Below are positions 40,596-43,205 of a stretch of DNA of 53,848 bases, piece by piece. A program made the translations under genes and the position numbers. Where the stretch lies: NCBI GenBank assembly GCA_903840415.1, contig CAIMFY010000033.1, positions 1-53,848 of the forward strand. The letters are read 5' to 3'. Positions within the stretch are counted from its first letter, which is position 1; the number at the start of each line of letters is the position of its first letter. The notes under the pieces were generated by a model. That model searched no databases and was not told where the DNA came from. It saw only the letters and a program-made list of their open reading frames with translations. This stretch comes from an uncultured Opitutia bacterium. GTDB taxonomy: Bacteria; Verrucomicrobiota; Verrucomicrobiia; Opitutales; Opitutaceae.

Positions 40596-43205
40596 ATGCA
40601 ACTTAGCGAAGAACGATACCGCACGCGCTGGGTCATCTTGGTTGGGTTGTGGGTCGTGGCGGCAGCGATGTTGTTTTACCAGGCAGAAATCATTCGCCGC
40701 TATTTGGAGACCGCGGGTGGCTTGGGGTTGCGGGGCACTGCGGCGCCTGATACGCCGCTCAAGCAGATTTACCCGGCTTTTGCCGCCGATGCCCAAACAT
40801 GGGTCCGCCACGCGCTAGGGTTGTTGGAGGGGAATCAACTTCAACTGCGTTTTACGACAATTGATAACGCTCCGGTGGGACGGGAAGTCCATTGGAATTC
40901 GGCCTGGGCTTGGCTGATCGGATGGGCTGGTTGGCTCTACCACCTGTTTACTGGGGCGCCGCTAACAACGTCGGTCGAGCGGTCCACCGTCTGGTTGAAT
41001 CCTTGCGTTTTGCTCGCGTGCATCATGGTGCTCTCCACGTGGGCCACGAGACGCGCCGGTGCGATCGCGGGGATGATCGTGGCCGTCGCATTGATGTGTC
41101 ATGACCGGATCTACGAAGGCTTCTATCCGACCTACGTCGACCACCACGGTTTACTTACGTTGGCGGTTTTTGGACTGATGCTGGGTGCAATCATGATGGG
41201 TGGGGGATGGTGGCAGGAGAAGTCAGCCGGCCAATCGCCTCTCTTGCCGGTGTCCCCGGAAGCCGCACGGAGTGCCGCAGTTTTTTCCGCCATCTGCGGT
41301 GCTTTCGGGATGTGGGTCAGCGCAGCGTCCACCGTGCCGCCGATTGCTCTCGTCGGAGTGTCAGGGGTGATCCCGGTGCTGTGGCACGGTCGAATCGCGA
41401 TGAGAGGCGGTGCCAGATTCGACCCGCGGGTTTGGCGCATGTGGGGAAGGGTGGGAGCGTCAGCGAGCTTGTTGTTTTATCTTTTGGAATATTTTCCCGG
41501 TCATCTGGAACTGAGGTTGGAGGCCAATCACCCTTTTTATGCGCTCGCTTGGTGGGGGGCCGGTGAACTGATCGCCGAGGTATCGGGTCGCTGGTTATCG
41601 CCTGGCGAACAACAACGCTCGCCGGGGTGGAACCTCGCGTGGCCCTGTGCGGCATTGGGCGTGGTGCCTATGGTGATAATACTTGGCGGGCCGCGTGTCT
41701 TCATCGTGTTGGACCCGTTTCTCGCGAGGCTGCATTCGAACTATATTCAGGAATTCCTACCGGTCTGGCGCGCCGTGCGGGGCGCGAACGCCATGATGGT
41801 CTTTCAACTGCTCGTCGTCGACAGCTTGCCGCTGCTGGCCGGATTCGCGACACTGACCTTCCTCCGTCGCGAGACGCCGATCATCGTATGGTTTGCCACC
41901 ATCGCCGGATTGCTGTTCAGTGTGATGGCGTGGTGGCAATCGCGCTGGCTGCTTAACGCCAGCGGCGTTCAAATCTGTCTGGTGATCGTTCTGTTCGGGT
42001 GCTGGACCCGATCGGCCGGTCCCGTCACTCGCTGGCTGGTGGCGATCGCACTGGTGGGCGCGCTTTACGTCCCGACATGTGCCATTCGTGTCTGGTCGGC
42101 AGCGGATCAGGTGCGCTTGCGCCGAGTGGTCCCGCGCGATGCCATCAACGTCCTTTACCGTGACATCGCGGCCGCAATCCGCGCCAGCCAACCGGAGGGT
42201 GAAATCACGCTGCTGTCTAGCCCCAATGGCTCGACTGGCATCGGCTATTATGGGCGTTTCCATACTTTGGGGACGCTTTATTGGGAGAATCGCGACGGCC
42301 TTGAGTCGGCCGCTGCCATTTTCAGCGCCAGACCAGATGCCGACGCGGCTCAACTGCTCCGACAACACCATGTGACCCACATCGCGATTGTTTCGGAGGA
42401 GAATTTTATCCAGCAGTATTTCGAACTCCTGCACCCAGGAGCCACCATCGACCAAATCAAGCAGGGATTGGGCTACAAACTGCTGGTCGATAAAAGCGTC
42501 CCGCAATGGCTCGAAACCATCCCATATCGGGTGCCCGCCGATCTCAGTTCGCTGAAGATTGTCGTGATGTTGTTTAAGGTGAACTTTGGCCAAAATCTGG
42601 CCGAGGCGCTCTACCACGTGGCACTCGCGCAAATCGTGCAGGGAGAAATCGACGCTGCTGATCGCACGCTCGACTTGCTAATCGCGAAAGCACCTCAGCT
42701 TTATCAACCGTGGCTGCAAAAAGCGGATCTTTTCTTAGCCCGCCACCGGTGGGACGAAGCGGCGGACGCGGTCAACCGCGCCATCTCGCTGACCCCGGCC
42801 GCCGAGCGCGTTGCCGTCTGCACGCTGGTTGGCAAGTCGTTTTACGATCAGCGGCAACACGCGACTGCGCTGCGAATTTATCGGGCTTCGATGGCGCAGC
42901 AACCCACGGCCGACACGGCGTGTTATCTGGCGTGGATATTGGCCACCAGCACGGACGACTCCATCCGCAATGGTCCGGAAGCGCTGAAGTTCGCCCAGCA
43001 AGCGGTGCTGGCCGATTCCAACTCGGCCATCTATTGGGAGAGCCTAGCTGCTGCGTTGGCCGAAAATGGTCGCTTTGCTGAAGCGGTTGCGGCCGCCGAC
43101 CGGGCCATCGTCAATTCTCGGATTGGAGGCGCTCCCGCTGCCACGCAGCAGATTTTTGTGCAACGGCTTGAGACGCTTAAAACTGGCCAGCCACTCCGAA
43201 ATTGA
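40596..43205 (+). CDS. STT3-like polytopic membrane protein with C-terminal TPRs
   Basis: 869-aa protein with about a dozen membrane segments (about 10-520) and a soluble C-terminal half containing TPR-like helices (about 640-850, for example DEAADAVNRAISLTPAAERV). The N-terminal part has oligosaccharyltransferase hallmarks: ADAQTWVRHALGLLEG, then NAPVGREVHWNS (residues 91-102, like the P-G-x-x-x-HW motif of AglB/STT3), and a loop with YVDHHGLL (D182-H184, like the DHH motif). The WWDYG motif is not found; the matching place seems to read LSSPNGSTGIGYYG. It may be a glycosyltransferase of the STT3/GT66-like superfamily, possibly for protein or polymer glycosylation; activity is unproven. Confidence 0.65.
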   Translation: MQLSEERYRTRWVILVGLWVVAAAMLFYQAEIIRRYLETAGGLGLRGTAAPDTPLKQIYPAFAADAQTWVRHALGLLEGNQLQLRFTTIDNAPVGREVHWNSAWAWLIGWAGWLYHLFTGAPLTTSVERSTVWLNPCVLLACIMVLSTWATRRAGAIAGMIVAVALMCHDRIYEGFYPTYVDHHGLLTLAVFGLMLGAIMMGGGWWQEKSAGQSPLLPVSPEAARSAAVFSAICGAFGMWVSAASTVPPIALVGVSGVIPVLWHGRIAMRGGARFDPRVWRMWGRVGASASLLFYLLEYFPGHLELRLEANHPFYALAWWGAGELIAEVSGRWLSPGEQQRSPGWNLAWPCAALGVVPMVIILGGPRVFIVLDPFLARLHSNYIQEFLPVWRAVRGANAMMVFQLLVVDSLPLLAGFATLTFLRRETPIIVWFATIAGLLFSVMAWWQSRWLLNASGVQICLVIVLFGCWTRSAGPVTRWLVAIALVGALYVPTCAIRVWSAADQVRLRRVVPRDAINVLYRDIAAAIRASQPEGEITLLSSPNGSTGIGYYGRFHTLGTLYWENRDGLESAAAIFSARPDADAAQLLRQHHVTHIAIVSEENFIQQYFELLHPGATIDQIKQGLGYKLLVDKSVPQWLETIPYRVPADLSSLKIVVMLFKVNFGQNLAEALYHVALAQIVQGEIDAADRTLDLLIAKAPQLYQPWLQKADLFLARHRWDEAADAVNRAISLTPAAERVAVCTLVGKSFYDQRQHATALRIYRASMAQQPTADTACYLAWILATSTDDSIRNGPEALKFAQQAVLADSNSAIYWESLAAALAENGRFAEAVAAADRAIVNSRIGGAPAATQQIFVQRLETLKTGQPLRN

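Follow-up and report, generated by a model that had tools for sequence, protein, structure and literature searches.

An AglB-like membrane protein family of Verrucomicrobiota without the WWDYG motif, linked in one clade to two-partner secretion

The gene, its family and its predicted fold

The analyzed stretch of contig CAIMFY010000033.1 from an uncultured Opitutia bacterium (hereafter the window; 53,848 nt) carries at 40596-43205 (+) an intact open reading frame (ORF) for a protein of 869 amino acids (aa). A predicted membrane domain of glycosyltransferase C (GT-C) type is followed by a domain resembling the soluble part of the archaeal oligosaccharyltransferase (OST) AglB and by a tail of tetratricopeptide repeats (TPRs). 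The gene is located between tRNA-Lys and a response regulator gene on one side and genes of an extracytoplasmic function (ECF) sigma factor and a zf-HC2 protein on the other, neighbors that gave no functional link. A first-pass annotation of the DNA had proposed an unusual enzyme of the OST superfamily, an assessment supported here by the fold comparison, in which AglB leads the matches and OST chains come next.

The window protein is a member of a large, mainly verrucomicrobial family. A scan of named genomes yielded 78 family loci, nearly all of them labelled Verrucomicrobiota or subgroups thereof. Family matches were found in 22 of the 57 genomes around the window's own (the latter counted) and, across the phylum, in 29 of 288 genomes sampled, with at most four candidates scored per genome. 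The own genome hosts a second copy, 43% identical to the window protein (L033:7779-10448, -), with genes for GH28 and a PAS-histidine kinase nearby, and two loci (L055:2495-7502 and L048:2449-7481) each contain a tandem pair of family genes. Further family genes occur in metagenome-assembled genomes labelled Gemmatimonadetes, Lentisphaerae, and Eisenbacteria (L056, L102, L111); L056 and L102 nest among verrucomicrobial rows in the tree, by either mislabelling or transfer. Two family queries against a plasmid collection gave no match. Among the entries listed in a search of the open-access literature, none named this family or a GT-C enzyme in a two-partner secretion (TPS) locus, which is weak evidence of absence as subscription papers were mostly outside the search.

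Conservation was computed over 102 family rows, consisting of the window protein, 79 proteins encoded at 77 of the 78 scan loci, and 22 rows of an earlier alignment; some genes are present twice (e.g., L004 and L103), and the fragment L076 fell below the script cut-off and is outside this set. Eight partial or duplicate entries (L010, L014, L016, L024, L026, L029, L030, L031) were omitted from alignments A1 and A2. Alignment A3 comprises 72 rows (71 proteins and the window protein), with three proteins shorter than 650 aa as well as L054, L059, L086, L089, and L099 omitted. A midpoint-rooted FastTree phylogeny was computed from 99 of the 102 rows, excluding three with fewer than 430 aligned residues; L092, a TPS-linked fragment ending before the WWDYG place, is absent from it. 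Gene neighborhoods were counted from tblastn matches, and clustering of flanking ORFs was left unused owing to spurious frames in GC-rich DNA.

The model of the full protein, predicted from 72 rows, reached a pLDDT of 95.1 and a pTM of 0.91. Its best VIA-align match was Archaeoglobus AglB (3wak; Z 20.7, residues 6-688, 587 aligned, root mean square deviation 4.9, 11% identity), the four AglB entries covering Z 17.7-20.7 (the three lower ones 17.7-19.1). Chains of yeast and mammalian OSTs scored 15.7-18.9, and CeDPY19, a representative of DPY19 (CAZy family GT98), scored 18.6-18.9 with 571 aligned residues. In Foldseek, the first 15 rows consisted of AglB entries and of chains belonging to complexes that contain an OST (the chain identity within translocon entries being presumed), led by AglB 7e9s at 1e-11; CeDPY19 followed in row 16 (1.8e-7), and PglB, the fold proposed for comparison in the first-pass annotation, was matched at 7.9e-5. 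As judged from the model, the fold is thus of the STT3/AglB/DPY19 kind, which alone does not separate AglB from DPY19. Exclusive matches to GT39/ArnT proteins, the outcome that would have spoken against the first-pass proposal, were not seen: the GT39-type enzyme Pmt4 matched with Z 14.8 over residues 5-512 only, compared with 20.7 over residues 6-688 for AglB. The absence of ArnT from the 50 VIA-align entries listed excludes nothing. Pfam listed 12 families for the window protein at E<=1, none of them a PMT model, and we rejected membership in GT39/PMT on this basis together with the lower fold score. DUF1736, expected next to TPRs in TMTC proteins, was likewise not among these 12 families, and the predicted polytopic GT-C membrane fold does not fit a soluble, cytoplasmic GT41 enzyme of the HMW1C kind.

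An AglB-like globular domain (approximately residues 510-660) lies between the membrane part and the TPRs, and a profile of residues 1-655 weakly matched two solved soluble domains of paralogues of Archaeoglobus fulgidus AglB (AfAglB), 3vu0 and 3vgp. The TPR fold spans approximately residues 668-865 in the fold comparison, with Pfam matches to TPR_2 (6.5e-7) and TPR_14 (1.3e-6) and to solved TPR proteins. The earlier description of the soluble part as TPR-like therefore applies to the tail and not to the AglB-like domain preceding it.

On sequence level, profile searches against STT3/AglB/PglB connected part of the family to OSTs and not the window protein alone, which matched TPR-type models only; neither PF02516 nor TIGR04154 was listed for it at E<=1. 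The NCBIfam model of archaeal OSTs (TIGR04154) was matched by 6 of 23 members at E<=1 (best 3e-9), with the best score of 35.8 bits not reaching the curated cut-off of 450, and the Pfam STT3 model (PF02516) by one of the 23 (4.8e-6). PF02516 was matched in 20 of the 288 phylum genomes; none of these loci (L112-L131) was among the family-profile hits in a script search. Both of the two best, L112 (8.6e-20) and L113, were tested with hhalign. The family profile aligned with the STT3-like verrucomicrobial L112 at a probability of 95.6 (E 1.1e-8), compared with at most 2.6 for 28 other targets (eight PMT_2 loci of the own genome, 17 weaker PF02516 loci, L113, and shuffled and reversed L112). All targets were single sequences, represented by the most hydrophobic ORF picked by script per locus; L126 yielded none. 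L112 (649-2781, -) itself contains Gly-Asn-Asp and Asp-His-His with SWPYG replacing WWDYG, and may stand between the canonical enzymes and those devoid of WWD. L113 (94-2295, -) carries WWDNG, so that more canonical OST relatives exist in the phylum. The own genome shows 19 PMT_2 (PF13231) matches at E<=0.001, i.e., many other GT-C-type enzymes.

Table 1. Features of the gene in window coordinates (rows refer to the family alignments)
Feature	Residues	Position	Strand	Evidence
Whole gene: predicted GT-C membrane domain, AglB-like soluble domain, TPR tail		40596..43205	+	ORF, predicted model, fold comparison
Putative first catalytic Asp	65	40788..40790	+	D in 92 of 102 rows; aligns with D of GND in L112, with low confidence there
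DNAPVGREVHW	90-100	40863..40895	+	Near-invariant; D90 96, P93 98, R96 99, H99 90 of 102 rows
Asp-His-His, putative second DXD motif	182-184	41139..41147	+	Invariant in A3 (72 rows); D182 96, H183 95, H184 96 of 102 rows; aligns with DHH of L112
LEYFPGHLELRLEANHPFYALAW, family signature	297-319	41484..41552	+	E298 101, P301 102, E309 99, H312 101, P313 102 of 102 rows
YIQE, TIXE-type motif	383-386	41742..41753	+	E386 96 of 102 rows, invariant in A3; E aligns with E of L112
QSRW	448-451	41937..41948	+	Q448 92, R450 97, W451 94 of 102 rows; aligns with QERF of L112
SPNGS at the WWDYG place, no Trp, no Asp	542-546	42219..42233	+	Aligned to SWPYG in L112; possible register shift of one residue
WEN	563-565	42282..42290	+	W 97, E 98, N 99 of 102 rows
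Stretch matching solved AfAglB-S2 and -S1 soluble domains	~568-602	42297..42401	+	3vu0 E 0.0024, 3vgp E 0.0082
TPR tail	668-862	42597..43181	+	Pfam, solved TPR matches, model, fold comparison

Putative catalytic residues and the missing WWDYG motif

Three of the features by which CAZy family GT66 is recognized have counterparts in the window protein. The GT-C membrane fold and the AglB-type soluble core are found in the model and its fold matches, the two DXD motifs (Asp65 and DHH 182-184) are recognized from their alignment and conservation, and the Glu of a TIXE/SVSE motif in external loop 5 (EL5) corresponds to E386, equated through its position and the L112 alignment. In AfAglB, according to the available part of PMC8342417, the metal is held by Asp47 (Gly-Asn-Asp) and by Asp161 and His163 (Asp161-His-His163), with Glu360 of the TIXE motif coordinating via water. 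The window DHH equals the second AglB motif letter for letter, and Asp65, Asp182-His-His184, and Glu386 would, on alignment grounds, correspond to the residues of the AglB metal site. D65, DHH, and E386 are invariant in all 72 rows of A3, the window protein included. L008 reads TIAE at the place of the window YIQE. By position, WEN may lie near the DGGK-type loop of AglB. The first-pass annotation had compared two loops, PxGREVHW and VDHH, with OST active sites. For DHH the comparison stood, as it aligns with the AglB-type motif; PxGREVHW is no named OST motif and follows the putative first catalytic Asp, aligning with PAGLHPNW of the STT3-like protein.

Oligosaccharyltransferases are known for reading the N-X-S/T sequon. 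The Ser/Thr pocket is built by WWDYG together with the DK/MI motif (PMC8342417, PMC3703281); in the accessible text of the latter, which identifies the DK/MI motifs by structure superposition, Trp-Trp-Asp and the Ile of the MI motif make the pocket of PglB. As the first-pass annotation had noticed for the window protein, WWDYG is missing, and neither WWD nor any variant of the form W-[WFY]-[DE]-[YWF]-G was found across the 102 family rows (101 of them extend to this place). An earlier placement at residues 548-553 (GIGYYG), taken from the 3vu0 match alone, was replaced by residues 542-546 using the L112 alignment. With WWDYG lost, the +2 Ser/Thr is presumably not read in the AglB way, and we infer that the acceptor differs from the usual one. 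Since the motif is absent from the family rows, we rejected canonical STT3/AglB/PglB (GT66) membership and did not file the protein there. In all likelihood, the protein works like AglB while lacking a defining motif of the AglB family.

Gene neighborhoods in two clades

Two clades of the family show a recurring neighbor. In 17 of the 78 loci, a TpsB relative (ShlB/FhaC-type; ShlB 4.1e-28) adjoins the family gene, either downstream on the same strand (eight loci, 66-373 nt) or divergently upstream (nine loci, 227-686 nt). In the tree, the 16 TPS-linked loci included there group with the window protein and with L004, which is the gene also present as L103; this group contains no other row. In six of the seven genomes counted, ShlB matches numbered 0-2; G006 had 14. 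The start of the exoprotein (TpsA) was readable and alignable in ten of the 17 loci, and a profile of these ten N-termini matched the secretion domain of HMW1 (7.1e-9), EtpA (1.6e-7), and HxuA (4.2e-5), HMW1 and EtpA being the nearest solved relatives. The filamentous haemagglutinin N-terminal model was matched by two of the ten. For one modelled exoprotein (pLDDT 81), Foldseek rows 1-9 were TPS exoproteins (E 3.3e-5 to 0.037). No TPS-domain model was listed by Pfam for the exoproteins tried, and phmmer with a single exoprotein N-terminus gave nothing convincing. A polysaccharide pyruvyltransferase gene is present in 13 of the 17 loci, e.g., at L103:9471-10508 (PF04230, 3.6e-9) after TpsB, where it may modify the same glycan. 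In other clades, large repetitive exported-looking proteins are encoded near the family gene (L067:8472-11312, L108:7772-10147, L110:31-4872), representing possible further acceptors.

In a second clade, a GT2 gene is located downstream in 16 of 26 loci (16 of 78 overall), in 12 of them at a distance of -4 to 21 nt. Among NCBIfam models, AglJ fits this GT2 best (3.5e-32; 112 bits compared with a cut-off of 325), and among solved structures dolichyl-phosphate mannose (DPM) synthase (5.4e-12). An AglJ/DPM-like GT2 gene, 54% identical to the L073 copy, also stands directly upstream of a family gene from a different clade (G006:C1 614452-615594).

Proposed function, alternatives, and known systems

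The combination of a putative AglB-type metal site, a GT2 gene resembling those of polyprenyl-phosphate-sugar synthases as neighbor in one clade, and an exoprotein pore as neighbor in another makes a periplasmic transferase the simplest reading. On balance, we regard the window protein as probably an AglB-type GT-C enzyme of the inner membrane, transferring a sugar from a polyprenyl-phosphate carrier to an exported protein under an acceptor rule other than the WWDYG reading of the +2 Ser/Thr. Family membership, predicted fold, motif conservation, the lack of WWDYG, and the gene neighborhoods are computational results. The periplasm would be the side faced by the active site, the soluble domain, and the TPR tail, a placement that, like metal binding, donor, acceptor, and the role of the TPRs, we infer from these data; the sugar would be taken up at a metal site formed by Asp65, Asp182, His184, and Glu386. 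The TPR tail would probably assist in holding the acceptor and be a plausible replacement for the lost WWDYG. For the clade that includes the window protein, an HMW1-like TPS exoprotein en route to its outer-membrane pore would be the probable ancestral acceptor. More tentatively, and with somewhat less than even expectation, an AglB-derived GT-C enzyme devoid of the sequon pocket may act as third partner of HMW1-type TPS systems, glycosylating the exoprotein on the periplasmic side with sugar from a polyprenyl-phosphate carrier, the acceptor being selected by the TPR tail instead of WWDYG.

Several observations weigh against these proposals. The window copy has neither a TPS nor a GT2 neighbor, its genome yielded no HMW-type exoprotein and one remote ShlB, and PF02516 was found nowhere in it at E<=10. 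The WWDNG-bearing PF02516 protein L113 was not reached by the family profile (0.8%), and divergent family members lose D65 and DHH. DPY19, a close second in fold, demonstrates that such a fold can function with no metal (PMC10154233). In the GT2 clade, ten of the 26 loci miss the GT2 gene, eight of them with at least 3.9 kb read downstream. Among the 17 TPS-linked loci, one offers a 28-residue piece of the exoprotein where its contig ends, and six revealed none in the stretch read. No TpsB is seen at 61 of the 78 loci, genomes G026 and G022 have the enzyme and no ShlB, and G007 has both on different contigs. TPS as a universal partner was therefore rejected, and TPS exoproteins are not the acceptors everywhere, considering the missing exoprotein in the window genome and the enzyme genomes without ShlB.

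The same 61 loci leave room for an AglB-fold transferase decorating a cell-envelope glycan or lipid rather than a protein, its TPRs merely assembling an envelope complex. This would accommodate the pyruvyltransferase genes in the TPS-linked loci and the finding that other bacterial GT-C relatives of STT3 have an open or non-protein role, the YfhO-like family being tied to STT3/PglB in sequence space (available part of PMC10584680). We nevertheless consider it unlikely, given the TPR tail, the steady link to an exoprotein pore across one whole clade, and the OST chains as best solved matches in a comparison that YfhO was outside of.

An ordinary N-X-S/T OST with a divergent Ser/Thr pocket and no need for WWDYG is clearly less probable. 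Eight exoproteins longer than 1200 aa do contain 344 N-X-T compared with 184 expected; however, the reversed motif T-X-N is enriched as well (273 compared with 184) and N-X-S not clearly so (z -0.8 to 2.3). Periodicity of beta-helices consequently explains at least part of the N-X-T excess, which does not tell N-glycosylation from beta-helix repeats; sequon enrichment was thus rejected as proof of exoprotein N-glycosylation. Moreover, the Trp-Trp-Asp that builds the PglB pocket together with the MI Ile (PMC3703281, in the part consulted) has no counterpart in any family row that extends this far.

A C-mannosyltransferase like DPY19 would agree with the fold, metal-free CeDPY19 scoring on a par with the three lower AglB entries in VIA-align, and with the DPM-like GT2 neighbors, as DPY19 uses dolichyl-phosphate mannose. 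It is nonetheless very improbable: DPY19 works without a metal and has no obvious metal ligands (available part of PMC10154233), whereas AglB-type ligands appear conserved in the family; Foldseek places DPY19 below AglB, and the eight exoproteins contain only 0.2-0.4% Trp. That the protein is a catalytically dead scaffold, as the loss of D65 and DHH in some divergent members might suggest, is scarcely credible in view of the invariance of D65, DHH, and E386 throughout A3, the window protein included.

If the proposed transferase is real, such a large family, retaining the catalytic core of AglB without a reader of N-X-S/T, would show how this specificity can be replaced, and a lipid-linked glycosyltransferase following another acceptor rule could serve glycoengineering. 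The genes linked to TPS point to a likely acceptor, making the idea directly testable by glycoproteomics.

Among known systems, TMTC1-4, O-mannosyltransferases combining a membrane GT-C half with a lumenal TPR half, share the overall architecture; they are described as nearest to ArnT (PMC7801869, in part available), whereas the window family is nearest to AglB. DPY19 shares the GT-C fold (Z 18.9) and differs in being metal-free, with no counterpart of the DHH/TIXE-type residues described in the available sections of PMC10154233. The archaeal AglJ-AglB pair resembles the clade in which an AglJ-like GT2 adjoins an AglB-like gene, which would be its bacterial echo, although the GT2 scores 112 compared with the AglJ cut-off of 325 bits and is not found beside the window copy. 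HMW1 and EtpA are glycosylated by the soluble enzyme encoded by the third gene of their own locus, cytoplasmic in the case of HMW1 (available part of PMC3983070). With HMW1C/EtpC (GT41), relatives of the window gene share the locus of an HMW1/EtpA-type exoprotein and a ShlB-type pore; HMW1C differs as a cytoplasmic enzyme using UDP-sugars and no lipid carrier (PMC3983070, same part), compared with a predicted GT-C membrane protein here. If the TPS proposal is true, the window's clade would represent a second, unrelated kind of glycosylation partner of TPS adhesins, i.e., a lipid-linked counterpart of HMW1C. The closest likeness is with AfAglB, covering the predicted fold of the membrane part and the first soluble domain, the Asp of the first motif, Asp-His-His, the TIXE-type Glu, and possibly a monophosphate carrier as described for AfAglB in the source part available; in contrast to AfAglB, the family is bacterial, lacks WWDYG, bears a TPR tail, and has relatives with TPS or GT2 neighbors.

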